Assembly (NCBI GenBank): GCA_019057475.1
Contig: DXJO01000013.1
Span: 1-63,518, forward strand
DNA length: 63,518 nt
From: Candidatus Thorarchaeota archaeon
GTDB lineage: Archaea; Asgardarchaeota; Thorarchaeia; Thorarchaeales; Thorarchaeaceae
Direction: 5' to 3'
This document shows, in pieces, positions 10,086-63,518 of the stretch. Positions within the stretch are counted from its first letter, which is position 1. Each line of letters opens with the position of its first letter. The notes below the pieces were generated by a model. That model did no database searches. It saw nothing but the letters and a program-made list of their open reading frames with translations, and had not been told where the DNA came from. The position numbers and the translations under genes are program-made.

Positions 10086-10934
10086 CTAGATCCCGACCTT
10101 GAAGATGAGAGCGTCCCTCAATACCCTCTGGAACATTCTGAGAAGGTTCTTCCCTTCAGTGGCTATTGTGGAAAAGATTGGAAACCCCTCTACATCGAGC
10201 ATCCGAACCATGTAATCTACTGGAAGTGCATTCGGCAGATCCCGCTTGTTCAAAGCGATAATGATGGGTATTGTGGCAATACGATCTGTTCCAAGGGCAA
10301 TCCGCAGCTCCTGGATGGAGGCAAGATTCTCGTTCATAGACTCGGGGCGAGAGTCTGCCATGAAAATGAGACCGTCCGTATCTCTCAGTACTGTGATGCG
10401 GCTTCTTGCGTGTCTTCGCTGTCCGGCTACTGTGAAGACGTCAAACACAATCCCCTTGCTTGCAGTTACAGGAATGAAGTCGAAGTAGGTTGTCCGGCCT
10501 AGTTCGTCGGATATCTCGATTATCTTACCCTTTGACAGAGATCTCACGTTGGCAAACAGCCATCTGAGAGCAGTTGTCTTGCCAGATAAGGAAGGGCCAT
10601 AGAAGACTAGTTTGATATGAATGCGACCCTGGTCATCGCGTTTTAGCACTCTTCCAGGAACTATCTCTGCGGTGGTCTGAGGAAGAATATGAGCTTCCTT
10701 CGCCAGCTTAGCGGTTTCTTCTTCGTCAAACTGTAGATCATCGGATGATGTGACAAGGTAACCCATAGGAGGGGGTACACCTCGAGGCACTGCTACAGTG
10801 GTTGAGGGCCTTATCTCATCTACAACGGATGTACTACCTGCAGATTCGACCGACGCAGAAAGATGCCGTTCCGTTTCAGCATCTTCATCCTTTCTCTTCT
10901 TCTTCCGGCCGAACAGCCTCCTCAGCACCGACAA
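10086..10934 (-). CDS. MglA/Arf-like small GTPase with N-terminal extension
   Basis: A 282-aa protein. Residues 1-100 are a charged, low-complexity extension rich in Lys/Arg at the start (GRKKKRKDED) and acidic later. Residues about 105-282 form a Ras-superfamily G domain. G1 is GPSLSGKT (113-120) and G4 is NKRD (229-232). The G3 position reads TVAGQ (168-172), with Thr in place of the usual Asp, a feature of the MglA branch. MglA-type GTPases work with Roadblock (MglB-like) regulators, which are present in this window. The TTG start has GGAG 6 nt upstream. It is divergent from the aminotransferase gene. Confidence 0.85.
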   Translation of the reverse strand: MSVLRRLFGRKKKRKDEDAETERHLSASVESAGSTSVVDEIRPSTTVAVPRGVPPPMGYLVTSSDDLQFDEEETAKLAKEAHILPQTTAEIVPGRVLKRDDQGRIHIKLVFYGPSLSGKTTALRWLFANVRSLSKGKIIEISDELGRTTYFDFIPVTASKGIVFDVFTVAGQRRHARSRITVLRDTDGLIFMADSRPESMNENLASIQELRIALGTDRIATIPIIIALNKRDLPNALPVDYMVRMLDVEGFPIFSTIATEGKNLLRMFQRVLRDALIFKVGI

Positions 10935-23345: not shown

Positions 23346-24047
23346 TCAGCGCTTCATTATCAAGACGGGGTTCTCAAGCAGAGGACGTATCGGTTCTTTC
23401 ACGGTGAAGCTCTCGTCACCCATAGCCACCTCAAGTAACTTTCTCAGCTCGAATCTCCGCAGGTAGCCCACTGCCTCCTCGCGGGGTAGGTTCAAGTCCT
23501 TCATCAACTTCTTCAGACCGCTCTTTTTGCCGCTGTGATCAGCGAAAGTGGAAAAGACTGTGCTCCATTGCATCATGCTGAGGTATAGCAGTGTTCTTAG
23601 CATACTGTCTACGTTTTTGCCAGTCTTAGCTGAAATTGGAATCACCGGAAGACCTGCTAGGAATCTCATCTTCTTACGCAGCTGAGTGACTCGTCGAGCC
23701 GCTTTTAGATCCTGTTTGTTAGCAGCAACAACACAAGGAACACCTGGAAGGAAAAACGCTATCTCTCTGAAGAAGAGCTTGGCACGTGCATCAGATTCAG
23801 GATCAACAGAGTCAACAACGAATATGATGCCATCAGCTCCCTCGCTCAGGATCTTCCTCATTGTTCTAAATCGTAGGAGTCCAGGTGTGCCAAACAAGAA
23901 GACATTGAGTCCATCAACATTTGCAAGGCCATGGTCCATGGCAATGGTTGTGCCTCTTCGTTCTATGTTAATGCAGGAACCATCAGTGATGTGATGTATG
24001 ATCTGGCTCTTGCCTGACCCATATGGCCCTGTAACTACAATCTTCAT
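23346..24047 (-). CDS. COG2229-type small GTPase
   Basis: A 233-aa Ras-like GTPase. G1 is GPYGSGKS (residues 7-14). The family signature TTIAMDHG is at 33-40 and the G3 region reads FGTPG near 52-56. G4 is NKQD near 109-112 and G5 is ISAK near 137-140. The C-terminal 70 residues form a helical domain with EEAVGYLRRFELRKLLEVA. The TT(I/V)AMDxG signature marks the predicted GTPase family COG2229, usually found near Roadblock proteins. It has no lipidation cysteine. The ATG at 24047 is the natural start, just before MKIVVTGPYG. Confidence 0.9.
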   Translation of the reverse strand: MKIVVTGPYGSGKSQIIHHITDGSCINIERRGTTIAMDHGLANVDGLNVFLFGTPGLLRFRTMRKILSEGADGIIFVVDSVDPESDARAKLFFREIAFFLPGVPCVVAANKQDLKAARRVTQLRKKMRFLAGLPVIPISAKTGKNVDSMLRTLLYLSMMQWSTVFSTFADHSGKKSGLKKLMKDLNLPREEAVGYLRRFELRKLLEVAMGDESFTVKEPIRPLLENPVLIMKR

Positions 24048-39431: not shown

Positions 39432-39944
39432 CTACGCGAGGCTTGCCGTGGCAAGCAGACGGAAGGCCTCCTCAACGTTTTGCCCGCTCAATGCACTTGT
39501 TTCAAGGAATCCGTTAAGACCATTTTCTTCCACAAACTGCTCGCACATCTCAGTTGAAATCACTCTCTCTTCGACAAGGTCTATCTTATTCGCAAGCAAG
39601 ATAATCGGAATCCTGTGGCCCAGGGATTTCTCAGTTTCCTCAATCCATTTTGAAAGTTCAAGGAAGGTGTTCTTCCGGGTTGTGTCAAAGACAAGCAGTG
39701 CTCCCTTTGAGCCCTTGTAGTAACTGCTTCTGATGAAATCGAACCGCTGTTGACCTGCCAGATCCCAGACGAGAAGCTTCACGTTCACGAGATTCCCAGT
39801 GGTGCTCTCTACTGTTACAGTTTTGACGGCGAACTGGCTGCCAATCGTCACGATGTACTGCTCTGTGAACTTGTGTGTTAGGAAGCGATTGACCAGAGCG
39901 GTCTTGCCGCTGCCCCCAGCGCCAATCAAGACCACCTTGCGCAT
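39432..39944 (-). CDS. Rab/Ras-like small GTPase
   Basis: A 170-aa compact Ras-superfamily GTPase. G1 is GAGGSGKT (8-15), G2 Thr33 is in YIVTIGSQF, and G3 is WDLAGQQRFDF (60-70). The effector-side RSSYYKGSKGALLVFD follows. G4 is NKID (near 117-120) and G5 is TSALSGQNVEEAF. The overall look is Rab-like, as in eukaryotic endomembrane GTPases. It has no C-terminal cysteine, so membrane attachment by prenylation is absent. The ATG at 39944 with GGCGAAGTG upstream is better than the 27-bp-longer frame. Confidence 0.93.
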   Translation of the reverse strand: MRKVVLIGAGGSGKTALVNRFLTHKFTEQYIVTIGSQFAVKTVTVESTTGNLVNVKLLVWDLAGQQRFDFIRSSYYKGSKGALLVFDTTRKNTFLELSKWIEETEKSLGHRIPIILLANKIDLVEERVISTEMCEQFVEENGLNGFLETSALSGQNVEEAFRLLATASLA

Positions 39945-40205
39945 AAATATCACTTCGCCTGACAATTGCATACCGCAACCCTACATCGTTCGCTATCAAA
40001 TGCGTGGAAGTATCTTATGAGAGTTGTAAAAACAACATCCTCCAAACATCCGATGCATAATTGAACTCGCTTAGACTCTATTTAGCCTTTGTCGGAATGA
40101 ACCCTCCTGAGGAAAGATGAAAGCTCAGTCAAGGATTGGCGCGATAGGAGCCCAAATACCACACAAGCGCGAAGGAGTTATATCACGCTCGCAAAGGATG
40201 AATGA

Positions 40206-55717: not shown

Positions 55718-56263
55718 TTACCCGCGGGCCGGATATGTCATCGTAATTCTGAACGTACATGCCTTGTGGCCTACCGACATGCAGGTGTCCTCGATGACAT
55801 CAAGCTTCTCGAATGTGATCCTATTGAAGTCAATTAAATACTCCAAGACCGCTTCAATGAATCCCTTCAAGAAGTGACAGGAGGGTTCAGCGCTCTCGTA
55901 ACCTGAGGCATAAGGATTGTCCTCAATCTCTATGATTGCCTCCTCGTCCAGCCAAAGCTTGTAGAGCTTCGCAATCTTAATGTCGCCGAATGGTACAATG
56001 AGCGTTTCAAGTGCAAGTTTGATGAACTCGATAATCCCCTTGAAATCACCTGGAGGCTTTTGTTTCCCCAATTTGAAATACTCACGCTGTGTTTCAAGAC
56101 CGGCCAAACGACCTGCGCTGTAGTAGAGCGTAGCAGTCTTTTCAGGAAACATGACCATGATTCTACTGCCAAGCTTGTTCCAAGTTTTCGAGAAGAAGGC
56201 TTGCATTAGTTGGCGATCTTTCAGCTTACCTTTCCACCACGGAATTACTTCTCTATCGGGCAT
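55718..56263 (-). CDS. V4R-domain protein
   Basis: A 181-aa protein with a V4R-like alpha/beta core. Conserved cysteine spots are EPSCHFLKGFIEAVLEYLID and IEDTCMSVGHKACTFRI, matching the 4-vinyl reductase/Bet3-fold pattern (C-x-F...G near the helix, C-x4-G-x3-C at the end). The N-terminal 55 residues are specific. It is third gene after the Roadblock-wH and Bet3-like genes (69-bp gap), probably in one operon. ATG at 56263 with GGAG 9-10 nt upstream. It could bind a small ligand or metal. Confidence 0.75.
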   Translation of the reverse strand: MPDREVIPWWKGKLKDRQLMQAFFSKTWNKLGSRIMVMFPEKTATLYYSAGRLAGLETQREYFKLGKQKPPGDFKGIIEFIKLALETLIVPFGDIKIAKLYKLWLDEEAIIEIEDNPYASGYESAEPSCHFLKGFIEAVLEYLIDFNRITFEKLDVIEDTCMSVGHKACTFRITMTYPARG

Positions 56264-56332
56264 CTGAATTGCTCCAGTTGGAGTTTACTCTCCGGGGGTT
56301 GTTAAGTGCTTTGTGCTGATATAACGGTGAGA

Positions 56333-56809
56333 TCACCATACGAGGCGTACGTTCCAAGTGCAAACGTCGGCCCCGGTAGCGCGACACATCTCCTGAAAGA
56401 CCTTGGACTCTACGCCCTTAAACTCAAGAATAGATTCGAGAATGCCACTGAAGATTTCACAGTAGCCGAAGCCGCGCATCCCCTCGAGATGCACATCTTG
56501 GCACCACAAGCAGTCTTTGTCAGTCACACGAACAGAACCACGAGCCGTTTCCATGTCTACATTGGAGGGCTTCTTGCCAAAGAGACTCTTGAATACAACG
56601 TCCATCAGCTTAGCGACATCTTCCCTAGTGGATACGGTGTCCTTCGTCTTGTCGACTATCTCGGTAGTGAGGTACACCTGTGAGCCAATCTCACGGCCAA
56701 GGTCACGCAAGCGCTGATTTGCATCTTCAATGTTAGCTGTACTAGATAGTACTTCTTCGACGTATTTTGAATATAGGGTGAGAAGTAAGGGATTCTGTAT
56801 CTTCGCCAT
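56333..56809 (-). CDS. Bet3/TRAPP-like V4R protein, copy A
   Basis: A 158-aa protein whose helices and strands line up with TRAPPC3/Bet3. The N-terminal NPLLLTLYSKYVEEVLSSTA then EDANQRLRDLGREIGSQVY matches the Bet3 helix pair (LTLTYGxxV...N-x-L-x-x-x-G-x-x-I-G). The second half has YCEIFSGILESILEFKGVES then KVFQEMCRATGADVCTW, again Bet3-like. Extra cysteines (CLWC, YC, C-x6-C) suggest a metal or redox site absent in eukaryotic Bet3. It follows the Roadblock-wH gene by 28 bp. ATG with GAGG 10 nt upstream. TRAPP parts act in vesicle tethering; the archaeal role is unknown. Confidence 0.8.
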   Translation of the reverse strand: MAKIQNPLLLTLYSKYVEEVLSSTANIEDANQRLRDLGREIGSQVYLTTEIVDKTKDTVSTREDVAKLMDVVFKSLFGKKPSNVDMETARGSVRVTDKDCLWCQDVHLEGMRGFGYCEIFSGILESILEFKGVESKVFQEMCRATGADVCTWNVRLVW

Positions 56810-56837
56810 TGAACTCTGACCTCAGATGGTTAGTCAC

Positions 56838-57833
56838 TTACACTGTCTTTCCGATCATCTTGAGACCATGCTTCCTGTAAAGTGCAACGGTCTGAATGAC
56901 CTTAACGTGTGCAACACCCAGAAGCTCTGCAATCGCGTCCGTCGTCTGTGTGCCGTCGCATGCATTAATGATGCGTCTATCTTCCGGCTTAACCTTGTTA
57001 GGAGATCCCTCGTACTTGGGGCACTTCACAAAGCGGCCAAGAGTTGCTTCCTTTTTCTTGACCTGGCCTGTTTCAATTGGGACTTCGACTATTCCCTTGG
57101 AAGCCGCCCACTTCAACAGATCCGCCACGCGCTCATTGGATTGAAACATTGAATCTGCAATCCGTTCCACGTTTTGTGTGCCGTCAACAAGCATCAGCAC
57201 ATCAAACCCGAAGTTGCGGTATTTCTTCTTCATCTCCTTGTGCATCTCTGATTCAAGGGTTAGGGCCGCTGAGTATGTTTCACCTCGCTTTGGAACTGTA
57301 GAAGGTTGCACTGCGAAATCCTCTGGTGACCGTTCAATGACTGGTGCAGGTGCTGCAGATACTGCAGGTGATGCCACCGCAGTCTTTGGCTCCTCAACAG
57401 GCAGTCCATTGGAAAAAGGCACCGGGGAAGTGGAGGCAGCATTGATTGCCATAGTTTCTAGTACTTGGAGATTCCCCTCCACAGAATCCTCGAACTCGTC
57501 AGGTGGAGGAGGCAGTTCAATACCTTCTAGCTGGCGCAACACGTTTTTCGTCTTTGCTATCGCCAAGCCTAGCTGCAATTCAGGAACATAGAGAACCGTT
57601 AGTATCCAGTTTACGTCCACTGGTGACAGGACCACTAAGCCCTTCTCAGTATCTATTGTCATAAGCCGCAGATCGGACTTGTAAAGACTGATACTATCCC
57701 TAACGCGGGGAAACAGCTCATCAGGAAACGAGAAGCTGACAAAGGGCCGTCCGTCCTTGGTCATCAATGAGTAACCCAATACTTGGTCATCAAATCTAAG
57801 CTTTGATAGAGCTCGTTCCAAATCGGTCGTCAT
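56838..57833 (-). CDS. Roadblock-like domain plus winged-helix protein, copy A
   Basis: A 331-aa protein. Residues 1-105 resemble Roadblock/LC7 or longin: LERALSKLRFDDQVLGYSLM then TKDGRPFVSFSFPDELFPRV, and ILTVLYVPELQLGLAIAKTK. A Pro/Ala-rich linker follows. Residues about 190-331 have two winged-helix-like repeats with VDGTQNVERIADSMFQSNER and ACDGTQTTDAIAELLGVAHV. The ATG at 57833 with GGTGC upstream matches the start of the paralogue. The paralogue at 60519 keeps both ends. It lies 28 bp before the Bet3-like gene, the core of a three-gene operon. A joint complex is inference. Confidence 0.78.
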   Translation of the reverse strand: MTTDLERALSKLRFDDQVLGYSLMTKDGRPFVSFSFPDELFPRVRDSISLYKSDLRLMTIDTEKGLVVLSPVDVNWILTVLYVPELQLGLAIAKTKNVLRQLEGIELPPPPDEFEDSVEGNLQVLETMAINAASTSPVPFSNGLPVEEPKTAVASPAVSAAPAPVIERSPEDFAVQPSTVPKRGETYSAALTLESEMHKEMKKKYRNFGFDVLMLVDGTQNVERIADSMFQSNERVADLLKWAASKGIVEVPIETGQVKKKEATLGRFVKCPKYEGSPNKVKPEDRRIINACDGTQTTDAIAELLGVAHVKVIQTVALYRKHGLKMIGKTV

Positions 57834-58159
57834 TCTGGCGCACCTTGTAATTCTAATCTGCACTCGGTCCCGCGTGTGCACACTCTTTTCTCAGAGTATT
57901 CTGAAAAGCATTGTGGTATTATACTTGATGAAAGGGGGTCTGAGTGGCCCAAACGAAACTAGCTAGGACTCTATTCTGGATTCAATGACAACCTAGCGGC
58001 ACGAAATCGTGCATGGGTGGTCAAAGATGTGCACTACTTACTCCGACCGGGCTGAACAAATGGCCAAACATACAAAGCGCTGGATCAACCCACTGTTACC
58101 TAGCCCAAAATGATTAAGACTCGAACGGACATTCTCAGGACTGCGAAAAAGGAGAAGGA
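57834..58159. other. gap between the Roadblock-wH gene and the divergent membrane gene
   Basis: About 325 bp with the presumed divergent promoters of the two flanking genes. A reading frame extends the Roadblock-wH protein to 57881 without support. No RNA gene seen. Confidence 0.3.
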
Positions 58160-58747
58160 TTGACAAGAATGCGGAATATTATCGGAGGTCTGGTCGGTGC
58201 ACTGGTTGGTTCAAGCATGATTGTCATCCTGCTGGCTTTGCTTCCAACCGAGTATCCGTCACCATTCGGCCTATTCTGGATAGCCTTCAGCGGTAGTGAT
58301 TCGCTTCTGGCTTCTGCAACCGGCTTGCTCAGTCCAACCACTTGGATATTGTACGTCATGACGTGGATTGCGATTGGGCTGGTAACTGCGCCGTTCGCTA
58401 AATCGGAATGGAATGCTGTGCGAACAGCCCTTTGGGTCGGTGTGTTCCTCTCTGTATTCGCTGTTTCATCCGCTCTGCTCTTGGATCCCACGCTGTGGAC
58501 ACTTGATAGAGAAGCGAGAAACATCTACTTCGTTCTGCAGTTTGCTAGTGGAATCGCATATTCGCTACTGTCCCTAGTCAGCTCGATACCATTAGCAATA
58601 CTGTTCCAGAAAGCGAGAAGAGAATCTGAGGCGCCCCCTCCAATCAAGATTGAAACTATATGTGAATGTGGAGCGGTCTTCAAATCTGCTCCGCTCATGT
58701 GCGCGGAGTGTGGACGGATTCTCAGAAACGAGTCTGAAGCAGTCTGA
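58160..58747 (+). CDS. four-helix membrane protein with C-terminal zinc ribbon
   Basis: A 195-aa protein. Helices at about residues 8-28, 38-80, 90-112 and 125-150 are followed by a cytosolic zinc ribbon: ICECGAVFKSAPLMCAECGR with two CxC/CxxC pairs. The start is TTG 58160 or ATG 58169 behind AAGGAGAAGG. It lies between the two Roadblock-Bet3 modules, convergent with the next membrane gene. It could be the membrane anchor of these modules, but nothing besides position says so. Confidence 0.7.
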   Translation: MTRMRNIIGGLVGALVGSSMIVILLALLPTEYPSPFGLFWIAFSGSDSLLASATGLLSPTTWILYVMTWIAIGLVTAPFAKSEWNAVRTALWVGVFLSVFAVSSALLLDPTLWTLDREARNIYFVLQFASGIAYSLLSLVSSIPLAILFQKARRESEAPPPIKIETICECGAVFKSAPLMCAECGRILRNESEAV

Positions 58748-58761
58748 TTAGAGTGCGGCGC

Positions 58762-59295
58762 CTACCGCTCCCTGCTGATTCCTCCACCGAGGAGACCCCC
58801 AAAAGCTGTTGCTATAGCTGGATACAACATGCCAGTGAGCACTCTCTGAAGGAGTAGCATGGATTCGGCACCAGCAATCTGTGTGAAGTCTGGTACTTGG
58901 ACAAAGAAGACCAACAGCCAAATCAAGAAAGCCCCTATGATAGCTGAGAACAATGCCGAAAGAACTCCAGGCAATATGTCCTTAGACAGAAGACCAGCAA
59001 TGAGACCACCCAGTCCCCAGGTTAGAAACATCAAGACCGGCACTTCCTGCGCACCATACGTCAGACCTACTCCCAATTCAGAGGGATAGAGCACAGTTCC
59101 CATAACAACCAACTTGAGCTCCAAATCAGTAAATGTCAGAAAGTCATTAATGATTCGCGGGTCGACTACATCCGGGGGAATGAACAGACCGAATGTCAGT
59201 ATCACGAATGTAACCGTGAAAGTAACTACTAGGCCCACGAGTGTGCCAAGACCTTGTCCCAAATGATTTCCTCCATGCGTGCTTGCTGCTATCAA
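58762..59295 (-). CDS. multi-pass membrane protein, unknown
   Basis: A 177-aa protein with four to five predicted helices (residues about 14-38, 62-80, 86-104, 110-132, 145-170), several glycine-rich (AFGGLLGGGISRER at the end). It is a hydrophobic small protein with no channel or enzyme motif I recognise. It starts at TTG 59295. It lies between the modules, convergent with the zinc-ribbon membrane protein (14-bp gap between stops). Confidence 0.65.
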   Translation of the reverse strand: MIAASTHGGNHLGQGLGTLVGLVVTFTVTFVILTFGLFIPPDVVDPRIINDFLTFTDLELKLVVMGTVLYPSELGVGLTYGAQEVPVLMFLTWGLGGLIAGLLSKDILPGVLSALFSAIIGAFLIWLLVFFVQVPDFTQIAGAESMLLLQRVLTGMLYPAIATAFGGLLGGGISRER

Positions 59296-59356
59296 TAGGA
59301 AGTAATCCAGAGCATTTATGCCTATTCTATGCGGGCATAGACTGTGTGATTCAACC

Positions 59357-60004
59357 TTGAACAGAATCGTGGACCTTACATTACCTCTCTATGCTGATGT
59401 GCCAGTCAGACCGGGCGATCCCGGGGTCGTCATGGATGAGCTCGCAGATATCGCCACTGAGGGGTACCGTTTGACTCATCTCTCAATGGGCACTCACACT
59501 GGTACTCACATAGACGCTCCTTCGCACATTATCGAATCGGGAAACACTCTGAACAACATCAGTTTCGATGTATTAGTAGGGCCATGTTGCCTTGTGAATG
59601 TGGCAGGCGAACCGGAGTCTTCTATTACGTTGGACGACCTCATTATTCACAAGGATGTTATCAGAAGTACCGGTCGTGTTGTTCTCAAATCGGGTTGGGC
59701 GAAACGGTGGGGCACGCCGGAGTACTACAGCAATTCACCGTCCATCACCATAGAGGCTGCGCGATGGCTTACGGGAAAAGATGTACATGTGAAGCTAGTT
59801 GGCTTCGACATGCCTACGCCATCAGTGAAGCAAGAAATAGACATCCATAAGGTGTTTCTCGAAGGGGGCATTCCTATAGTAGAATGTCTGAATCTTGAGA
59901 ACCTGACTCAATCTCACTTCGAGATAGTGGTGGCCCCACTCCCGCTGCGTAACCGAGAGGGAGCCCCGTGTAGAGTGTTTGGTTTACTCAATCGGTCTTC
60001 CTGA
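59357..60004 (+). CDS. cyclase-family (kynurenine formamidase-like) hydrolase
   Basis: A 215-aa Cyclase/PF04199-fold metal hydrolase. NRIVDLTLPLYADVPVRPGD followed by HLSMGTHTGTHIDAPSHI (HxGTHxDxP metal motif) and VKLVGFDMPTPS then VECLNLENL mark the family, which includes arylformamidase and polyketide cyclases. The TTG at 59357 matches the family N-terminus; a TATA-like CATTTATG about 40 bp before it fits. The longest frame begins at 59318. The 3' end overlaps the Bet3-like copy B gene by 17 bp, convergently. Confidence 0.88.
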   Translation: MNRIVDLTLPLYADVPVRPGDPGVVMDELADIATEGYRLTHLSMGTHTGTHIDAPSHIIESGNTLNNISFDVLVGPCCLVNVAGEPESSITLDDLIIHKDVIRSTGRVVLKSGWAKRWGTPEYYSNSPSITIEAARWLTGKDVHVKLVGFDMPTPSVKQEIDIHKVFLEGGIPIVECLNLENLTQSHFEIVVAPLPLRNREGAPCRVFGLLNRSS

Positions 60005-60410
60005 TGGTCCAAGTGCAGTCTGCATCACCCAATGCCTTGCAGGACTCTTGATACGTTTCGCCCTTGAATCCTCGGAGATCCAATACCGCTTGAAATACAC
60101 CACTAATCAGATTGCAGTATTGAAGTCCAGGCATGTCCGTAATTTCAACGCCCTCACATATCGGACAGTCTGCATCAGTGAACTTCAAAGTCCGCTTGTC
60201 TTCACTCACCGAAACCGACGAGAATGGTTGTCCAGAATTCACCCTATACGCTAGCTGCAGCGTCTTGCCAAATTCGTGAAACTCGCTTGCGTGTTGGCGG
60301 ATCTTATCTGCATAGTCAAGCAAGAGATGCTCGCCCACGCGGAAGCCGATCTCCTTCAATCGCTGATTGATGATCTCCACGTTCTCACTCGAACTCATCA
60401 AGTTGTTCAT
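59988..60410 (-). CDS. Bet3/TRAPP-like V4R protein, copy B
   Basis: A 140-aa paralogue of copy A. The N-terminal part EIINQRLKEIGFRVGEHLLL matches the Bet3 helix (N-x-R-L-x-x-x-G). The cysteines are the same: CPIC, then QYCNLISGVFQAVLDLRGFK, and CKALGDADCTW. The N-terminus is about 25 residues shorter than copy A, since the first Bet3 helix is reduced. It lies 108 bp after the Roadblock-wH copy B on the same strand. Function as for copy A. Confidence 0.78.
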   Translation of the reverse strand: MNNLMSSSENVEIINQRLKEIGFRVGEHLLLDYADKIRQHASEFHEFGKTLQLAYRVNSGQPFSSVSVSEDKRTLKFTDADCPICEGVEITDMPGLQYCNLISGVFQAVLDLRGFKGETYQESCKALGDADCTWTIRKTD

Positions 60411-60518
60411 TAGTTCTCTGTAGATTGCTTAGAAAAGGGGCTTTGATACTTTGTCGATTTTGAAAGTCCAAGCAAGTTTTCCTTTAATACCCATTTTTAT
60501 TCACTCCAAATAATGATG

Positions 60519-61448
60519 CTATTCTCTGGTTTTTCTAATCATTTTGAGGCTCTTGCCGCGATAAGGTACAATGCACTGTAGAGCATTGAAGTACAGTATG
60601 CCAAGTTTTTCTGCAATCTCATGGACTGTTAGTGTGCCGTCACAAAGCTCAAGAACATCTCTATGGTTCTTTTTCGCCTTCTTGATTTTACCCTCGAAAA
60701 GGGGCAGTTCTACAATCTCTTTGGCACTGGTTTCCTGCGCCTCCGGACACTCTACATCAACGACACCTTTTTGCAGACACCACTGAACAACCTCAAGCAC
60801 TTGCTCAATTCGCTTTGACAGGTCATCTGCAATCTTGACAACCGTGCGCTTCTCGTCCACCATTAGAAGGACGTCCACGCCTACATTGGCGAACTGCTTC
60901 TTGAACTCAATGTTCAGAGCTGAGTCAATCTTGAGTGCATCGGCATACGCAACTCCGCGTAGTATAACACAACCATGTCTGGCCTTGGTGTCAGAAGGAA
61001 TCAACTCCTCAGCTTTCGCCATCACAACTGATTGCGGGGTTTCCTCAACAGCAGGACTGATGGCAGCTGAAGTCCCTGAGCCGATTTCCGATGTAACTGG
61101 AATTGGATGCTCAACAGGCGCCGGTGGAGGCGGAAGCGTGACGTCTTCAAGAAGTCGCGCCACCTCCTTGACCTTTTGAAGTGCGCTACCAAGTGACTCT
61201 GTGGGTTCGAAAAGAACGCCAAGGATCCATTGCGGGTCCACTCGAGCCAGAATCACCGTGCCTGCATCGGTCATGATATTCATGAGTCGAAGAGATGATT
61301 CATGGATTCGGAGAGTGCCCTGAATCGGAGGAAGAGCCTCGTCAGGTAAGGAGAAGGACAGAAATGGTTGGCCATCATTTGTAATCAGAGCATAACCATT
61401 GACCGACTCGTCATACCTAAGCTTACCAAGTACACGCTCGAGTTCCAA
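60519..61448 (-). CDS. Roadblock-like domain plus winged-helix protein, copy B
   Basis: A 309-aa paralogue of the copy A protein. Residues 1-110 (ELERVLGKLRYDESVNGYAL, then ITNDGQPFLSFSLPDEALPP, then WILGVLFEPTESLGSALQKV) match its Roadblock-like domain. The tail has LMVDEKRTVVKIADDLSKRI and LCDGTLTVHEIAEKLGILYF as in copy A. TTG start at 61448; an AT-rich TATA (GGTATTAATC) about 30 bp upstream. The Bet3-like copy B gene follows 108 bp later, so the whole pair is duplicated. Confidence 0.78.
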   Translation of the reverse strand: MELERVLGKLRYDESVNGYALITNDGQPFLSFSLPDEALPPIQGTLRIHESSLRLMNIMTDAGTVILARVDPQWILGVLFEPTESLGSALQKVKEVARLLEDVTLPPPPAPVEHPIPVTSEIGSGTSAAISPAVEETPQSVVMAKAEELIPSDTKARHGCVILRGVAYADALKIDSALNIEFKKQFANVGVDVLLMVDEKRTVVKIADDLSKRIEQVLEVVQWCLQKGVVDVECPEAQETSAKEIVELPLFEGKIKKAKKNHRDVLELCDGTLTVHEIAEKLGILYFNALQCIVPYRGKSLKMIRKTRE

Positions 61449-63198: not shown

Positions 63199-63518
63199 AT
63201 GGTTCATGAGACATACAGGAGGCTGTTGACCCTCCGGTACATGAACTCATCTCCTCAGTCGTTACATGAAGCACTTTCTGTAGCAAGGAGATTTCCTTCA
63301 CCTGAAAAATTGAATACTGATTTCATCGTTGAGTTCCTTAACTCCTACAATAACGTCAATACACGTTCCTACTATTACTACATCATCAAGGTCATTTGCA
63401 AAGAGATAGGTTGTCCTGAGTTGATTGAACCTATTCCAAGACCCAAAGAAGTTTCAGCTATTAGACGACGTGACCTCTTGACTCCTAATGAAATTGCTGC
63501 ATTGTTGAGAGCCTGCAA
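63199..63518 (+). CDS. tyrosine recombinase (phage-integrase family), 5' part
   Basis: The first 106 codons of a gene that continues past the right edge. ATG 63199 has GGGGAG 8 nt upstream. The start MVHETYRRLLTLRYMNSSPQ and the SAM-like helical part NSYNNVNTRSYYYYIIKVIC are followed by RRRDLLTPNEIAALLRAC, the typical link into the catalytic domain of integrase/XerC-type recombinases. The catalytic RHRY residues are beyond the window. The base composition is richer in A+T than the neighbours, suggesting a mobile element or recently acquired gene. No att site is apparent. Confidence 0.82.
   Translation, partial: MVHETYRRLLTLRYMNSSPQSLHEALSVARRFPSPEKLNTDFIVEFLNSYNNVNTRSYYYYIIKVICKEIGCPELIEPIPRPKEVSAIRRRDLLTPNEIAALLRAC

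Follow-up and report, generated by a model that had tools for sequence, protein, structure and literature searches.

Two gene pairs in a Thorarchaeota contig

The window analyzed here is a 63,518-nucleotide stretch of DNA from Candidatus Thorarchaeota archaeon (assembly GCA_019057475.1, contig DXJO01000013.1). It was found that two gene pairs lie about 3 kb apart on its reverse strand, each encoding a Roadblock-type protein with winged helices (RB-wH) and then a protein resembling TRAPPC3/Bet3. Pair A consists of RB-wH_A (56838-57833, 331 amino acid residues) and TRAPP_A (56333-56809, 158 residues), and is directly followed by V4R_C on the same strand (55718-56263, 181 residues), the gene of a third protein with a V4R fold. 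The open reading frame (ORF) of RB-wH_A reaches further, to a GTG codon at position 57881; the conserved start is at 57833. Pair B consists of an intact RB-wH_B (60519-61448, 309 residues) and an interrupted TRAPP_B (59988-60494), which has an in-frame TAA codon on the same strand (60429-60431) and a remaining ORF of 140 residues from an internal ATG (59988-60410). The ORFs and the Pfam matches to the TRAPP and V4R families above the cut-offs confirm this arrangement, which the original prediction had described from the sequence alone. In contrast, the predicted duplicated module is not intact, because the second Bet3-like gene has a stop codon and sister species hold only remnants of it.

Identity of the TRAPPC3-like proteins

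Both Bet3-like proteins exceed the cut-off (27 bits) of the Pfam TRAPP family (PF04051), with 42.6 bits (E-value 6.9e-11) for TRAPP_A and 29.7 bits (6.2e-7) for TRAPP_B. TRAPP_A is an orthologue of the crystallized Thor-TRAPPC3 (7yh3 from SMTZ1-45 and 7yh2 from AB25; E-values 7.2e-78 and 2.7e-77, respectively), which bears out its Bet3-like identity. The SMTZ1-45 locus (L062) encodes the crystallized sequence right after its RB-wH_A, as in the window. According to the crystallographic paper, Thor-TRAPPC3 is a TRAPPC3-like homodimer with Zn held by four cysteines, for which ligand binding was suggested as a role (Tran et al. 2024, PMC10933270). Thus, the Bet3-like fold and the four-cysteine Zn site were already known, and by orthology TRAPP_A is predicted to have the Bet3-type fold and dimer. 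TRAPP_B matches 7yh2 (5e-20) and Drosophila TRAPPC3 (5.9e-7); in the phmmer searches, eukaryotic TRAPPC3 was matched better by copy B than by copy A (0.034).

Five cysteines had been noticed as shared by the two copies and guessed to bind a metal. All five are indeed present in both window copies, but only C100, C103, C117, and C150 (TRAPP_A numbering) are invariant in 48 A and B homologues, while C142 varies. Since these four are invariant and agree with the published count, they are probably the Zn ligands; Thor-TRAPPC3 has the same four. The guess of a metal was right, yet the Zn had already been published. Helices 2 and 5 of the TRAPP family carry glycine pairs (Podar 2008), of which the first is present here (G38 and G42), while the second has an invariant G122 and a Ser or Ala at the other position.

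Fold of the Roadblock/winged-helix partner

The AlphaFold 2 model of RB-wH_A, built with 47 sequences, has a mean predicted local distance difference test score (pLDDT) of 83. In this model, residues 2-102 are arranged as helix, two strands, helix, three strands, and helix, and are followed by two winged-helix-like domains (residues about 187-245 and 268-330). Foldseek matched the model to the Roadblock proteins 7f8m, 9jue, Ragulator MP1/p14, and MglB, with a probability of 1.00 and a TMt of 0.66-0.68 for the Thorarchaeota Roadblock 7f8m. The top E-values (5e-7) belong to GATOR1/KICSTOR and SEA-complex chains aligned over about 360 columns, with TM-scores of about 0.2. I take these chains of 360-400 residues to be NPRL2/NPRL3-type subunits. 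NPRL2/3 proteins consist of a longin domain and two or more winged helices (PMC5681675). The model and the Foldseek matches support the predicted Roadblock domain with a winged-helix tail, in a possibly NPRL2-like domain order. RB-wH_B, a paralogue with 38% identity in the alignment, is spanned entirely by the RB-wH profile and would, by the RB-wH_A model, likewise have a Roadblock-type N-terminal domain, a linker, and two winged-helix-like domains.

Primary sequences gave weaker signals. A phmmer search of RB-wH_A against the PDB gave a chance match only, while its profile weakly matched the Roadblock 7f8m (0.33). The Roadblock domain did not reach the cut-off of Pfam Robl_LC7 (PF03259), which 15 of the 47 members matched weakly (best 0.028). 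The tail weakly matched HTH_47 and other DNA-binding families. No Pfam NPR2 match was found near the RB-wH genes in 29 genomes. RB-wH shares the Roadblock fold with the MglB/Robl_LC7 GTPase regulators but has a winged-helix tail. It may resemble GATOR1 NPRL2/NPRL3 in having a Roadblock/longin-type N-terminal domain before the winged helices, but this domain is a Roadblock rather than a longin, and the partner is TRAPPC3-like rather than DEPDC5. Across Thorarchaeota, the identity of copy A is 91% in the Roadblock domain, 72% in TRAPP_A, and 56-65% in the winged helices. A Roadblock domain more conserved than TRAPP_A is as expected for a binding surface.

Conservation of the pairing in Asgard archaea

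In each of the 31 Thorarchaeota loci examined, RB-wH_A immediately precedes TRAPP_A, with gaps of -17 to +39 nucleotides (median 23), and the median gap of pair B is about 10 nucleotides. Most of these loci have the order L13e, pfkB, RB-wH_B, TRAPP_B, TM177, TM195 (opposite strand), RB-wH_A, TRAPP_A, V4R_C, a helix-turn-helix gene, and an ATP-binding cassette (ABC) transporter gene. Since this order is kept across the loci, the arrangement is not due to chance.

Is the pairing common in other Asgard families? In 19 of the 40 fetched loci of TRAPPC3 homologues, the RB-wH profile matched an adjacent gene on the same strand, while the profile has only about 1-8 matches per genome outside Thorarchaeota. 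Conserved adjacency, which the original prediction had put forward as its own test, was therefore found both within and beyond Thorarchaeota. The surroundings of these genes are unrelated to those in Thorarchaeota, and the partners match RB-wH mostly in the second (last) winged helix, with hhalign probabilities of 97-98% in families f9, f11, and f5 and 89% in f13. The N-terminal domain of the partner varies: it is a longin in f13 and, judged by sequence pattern, Roadblock-like in f11, f12, f5, and f16. Profile-profile comparison revealed no connection between the Roadblock domain and the other N-terminal domains; thus, I do not claim their common descent. Family f9 has a separate gene carrying a Roadblock and the first winged helix, and hence the thorarchaeotal RB-wH may have been put together from two ancestral genes.

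The longin partners beside TRAPPC3 homologues have BET5 as their best PDB matches (4.8e-4 and 0.0078) with a profile of five sequences, which includes the longin half of a longin-TRAPPC3 fusion (L165). A phmmer search with the lone longin neighbor of L085 found nothing, and BET5 was reached by the profile only. L165, from one Asgard family, has no winged helix. Its domain combination is that of a Heimdall fusion protein (MBD3190748.1) described in PMC10933270, and the longin of the latter is homologous to those of L085 and L178. The Heimdall fusion is a single chain, whereas the window has two genes and a Roadblock. The longin profile matched 224 of 228 Asgard genomes, with eight matches in the window genome. 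Longin-domain matches therefore occur in Thorarchaeota, whereas PMC10933270 lists longins for Loki and Odin only. Family f4 has another pairing of Roadblock and V4R genes: a small V4R-like (MetOD1) gene comes immediately after a Robl_LC7 gene (L202, 1315-3146; L204, 1450-3234), and in L202 they lie next to a longin gene that exceeds the cut-off of Pfam Sybindin.

No earlier report of the TRAPPC3/RB-wH pairing was found in the open-access papers searched. The available text of PMC10933270 treats single proteins and mentions neither the RB-wH neighbor nor an ancestral-type copy B. It states that in MK-D1, GTPase genes generally lie outside operons with Roadblock, longin, or TRAPPC3 genes. Thus, the wide conservation of the pairing appears to be new.

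Decay of copy B and derivation of copy A

In relatives, TRAPP_B is about 170 residues long, and its start codon corresponds to positions 60492-60494 of the window. The TAA codon stands in place of the Gln that relatives have in PLFQA(I/T)YREL, and the leftover ORF misses the N-terminal portion of the first helix. In two sister genomes (G001 and G004; loci L064 and L066), only a C-terminal remnant of TRAPP_B is left beside an intact RB-wH_B, and a third (G006) has a TRAPP_B match of remnant size. Because of these remnants, true decay is favored over an assembly error, and only pair A is intact in the genus of the window. Other Thorarchaeota have been damaged independently: the N-terminal part of TRAPP_B is disrupted in L099 and L042, both B genes have stop codons in L079, and both are absent in L078 and L094. 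In genomes G017 and G018, the two B genes have decayed or been lost together, which was counted in favor of the pair as a unit. A gene of the Pfam Cyclase family (PF04199; 59318-60004, forward strand) shares 17 nucleotides with the 3′ end of TRAPP_B. It adjoins TRAPP_B only in the genus of the window, and its presence coincides with the decay.

In a phylogenetic tree of 79 sequences, copies A and B are each monophyletic (99/99 and 96/98, respectively). Copy B falls with the TRAPPC3 homologues of families f5, f7, f9, f10, and f13, while copy A is on a long stem. The original prediction had seen a possibly ancestral version in this locus; on the contrary, the tree suggests with moderate confidence that pair A is a derived thorarchaeotal paralogue and that copy B is the ancestral Asgard type. 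The confidence is only moderate because the root is a midpoint root and several branches are long.

V4R_C and neighboring genes

V4R_C matches the Pfam V4R family (PF02830) above the cut-off (1e-11). Its AlphaFold 2 model has a pLDDT of 82 and a predicted TM-score of 0.81, and was matched by Foldseek first to MopR (3.7e-6) and closely to TRAPPC3 (about 2e-5), with PoxR also among the matches. By this model, V4R_C is predicted to have the V4R/TRAPPC3 fold. Residues C129, E158, C161, and C169 are invariant in the alignment and presumably resemble the Zn site of MopR, a lead only; V4R_C may possibly carry a PoxR/MopR-type Zn site. The bacterial V4R sensors PoxR, MopR, and DmpR have the same fold with a Zn-stapled ligand pocket and are nearest to V4R_C, but they are fused to AAA+ activators, whereas the proteins here stand alone. 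In the window genome, contig C33 starts (1-798, L201) with the final part of a second TRAPP_A-like gene and, after it, a divergent V4R_C copy; these may represent either a further paralogue or contaminating DNA.

The region between the pairs (58160-59295) holds genes of two likely membrane proteins, one of 195 residues on the forward strand and one of 177 residues on the reverse strand (TM177, 58762-59295). Both have no Pfam match and are kept between the pairs in Thorarchaeota, as seen from synteny. TM177 might possibly serve as an anchor. At the window edge, an open-ended ORF (63199-63516, forward strand), which looks like a tyrosine recombinase by eye, adjoins the gene for ribosomal protein L13e.

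Possible function of the gene pairs

It is tentatively proposed, with somewhat less than an even chance of being right, that the TRAPPC3-like and RB-wH proteins form a two-protein, ligand-binding GTPase platform. The two proteins of each pair would be subunits of a single small assembly. In it, the TRAPPC3-like subunit would form a homodimer whose hydrophobic pocket is stapled by Zn, as in the crystals of the copy A orthologue, and its neighbor would be an adaptor dimerizing through a Roadblock domain (longin in other lineages), with the winged helix or helices serving mainly for protein contacts. As a platform responsive to a membrane or ligand, the assembly would bind a small GTPase, whose gene lies elsewhere in the genome, and regulate it; it would be a simple counterpart of the Bet3 and longin core of TRAPP. 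Roadblock and longin dimers are known as GTPase platforms. Together with the gene adjacency, the longin-TRAPPC3 fusion, and the nearly invariant surface of the copy A Roadblock, this suggests that the two proteins may form a physical complex with a GTPase target and with guanine nucleotide exchange factor (GEF) or GTPase-activating protein (GAP) activity.

Several observations weigh against this platform. The module has no GTPase gene of its own; those in the window are at 10086-10934, 23346-24047, and 39432-39971, the nearest being about 16 kb from pair A. GTPases are also common, with about 24 Ras-family matches in the 3.34-Mb genome. The presence of GTPases in the same 63 kb, which had been offered as support, is thus weak, and their proximity was rejected as evidence of partnership owing to this density. 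RB-wH_B remains intact in the genus of the window despite the broken TRAPP_B, so that the partner is not strictly dependent on it. Outside Thorarchaeota, about half of the loci have no adjacent partner; families f4 and f6 have tandem TRAPPC3-like genes instead (L162, L164, L181, and L194), and the f9 partner has a zinc-ribbon-like N-terminal domain, neither Roadblock nor longin. Finally, eukaryotic TRAPPC3 has what I take to be a palmitoylation Cys in its pocket, and neither TRAPP_A nor TRAPP_B has a Cys at the aligned position.

The main rival, which is possible but rather unlikely, is a transcription regulator that senses a ligand. In this reading, the V4R/TRAPPC3-like dimer would bind a lipid or hydrophobic molecule and signal to a winged-helix DNA-binding partner, and the Roadblock or longin would serve only for dimerization, by analogy with the sensor domains of bacterial PoxR/MopR. 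Across families, it is the winged helices of the partner that are conserved and the N-terminal domain that varies, the tail has the weak matches to DNA-binding families, V4R_C is nearest to MopR, and a ligand-binding role is also what the crystallographers proposed. Such a regulator hardly explains why the Roadblock of copy A is far more conserved than its winged helices, or why the L165 fusion lacks a winged helix altogether. A GATOR1-like module, in which RB-wH would act on Rag/Gtr-type GTPases, like NPRL2/NPRL3, as a GAP or scaffold and the TRAPPC3-like protein would be the ligand sensor, is improbable. It draws on the top Foldseek E-values and on the shared domain architecture, while the low TM-scores with a different domain orientation, the lack of Pfam NPR2 matches near RB-wH, and the Roadblock in place of a longin speak against it. 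It is very improbable that the genes merely remain together without a shared function. The surrounding L13e, pfkB, and ABC transporter genes are also kept in Thorarchaeota, but the pairing recurs in other families whose fetched loci lack these surroundings, and the longin-TRAPPC3 fusion exists.

How close is the proposed platform to TRAPP? The eukaryotic TRAPP core (Bet3/TRAPPC3, Trs31, and Trs33, with the longins Bet5 and Trs23) shares the Bet3-like fold, and a Bet5-like longin partner is found in some Asgard families. In this respect the original prediction is supported. In contrast, the partner in Thorarchaeota is a Roadblock with two winged helices, in an order as NPRL2-like as it is TRAPP-like; the Zn site is present and the palmitoylation Cys is absent. 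A Bet5/Trs23 (Sybindin)-type longin partner was not found in the window, and the Sybindin family has no match in the window genome while it has matches in other Asgard families. It is somewhat doubtful, and unlikely on balance, that the pair is a direct forerunner of the TRAPP core. In that case it would be a two-gene GTPase regulator whose longin/Roadblock subunit was exchangeable between lineages; it would have been duplicated later in Thorarchaeota, and eukaryotes would have received its form with the Bet5-like longin.

Asgard archaea were already known to have TRAPPC3 homologues, roadblocks, and longins as separate parts, and according to the literature searched, genome layout gave no means of matching regulator genes to their partners. 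The conserved pairing now supplies a candidate partner for the crystallized protein. Since that protein is probably the derived paralogue, the ancestral type may be better modeled by copy B of other genera. A pre-eukaryotic TRAPP-like complex would now be testable with two small proteins, one of about 160 and the other of about 330 residues.

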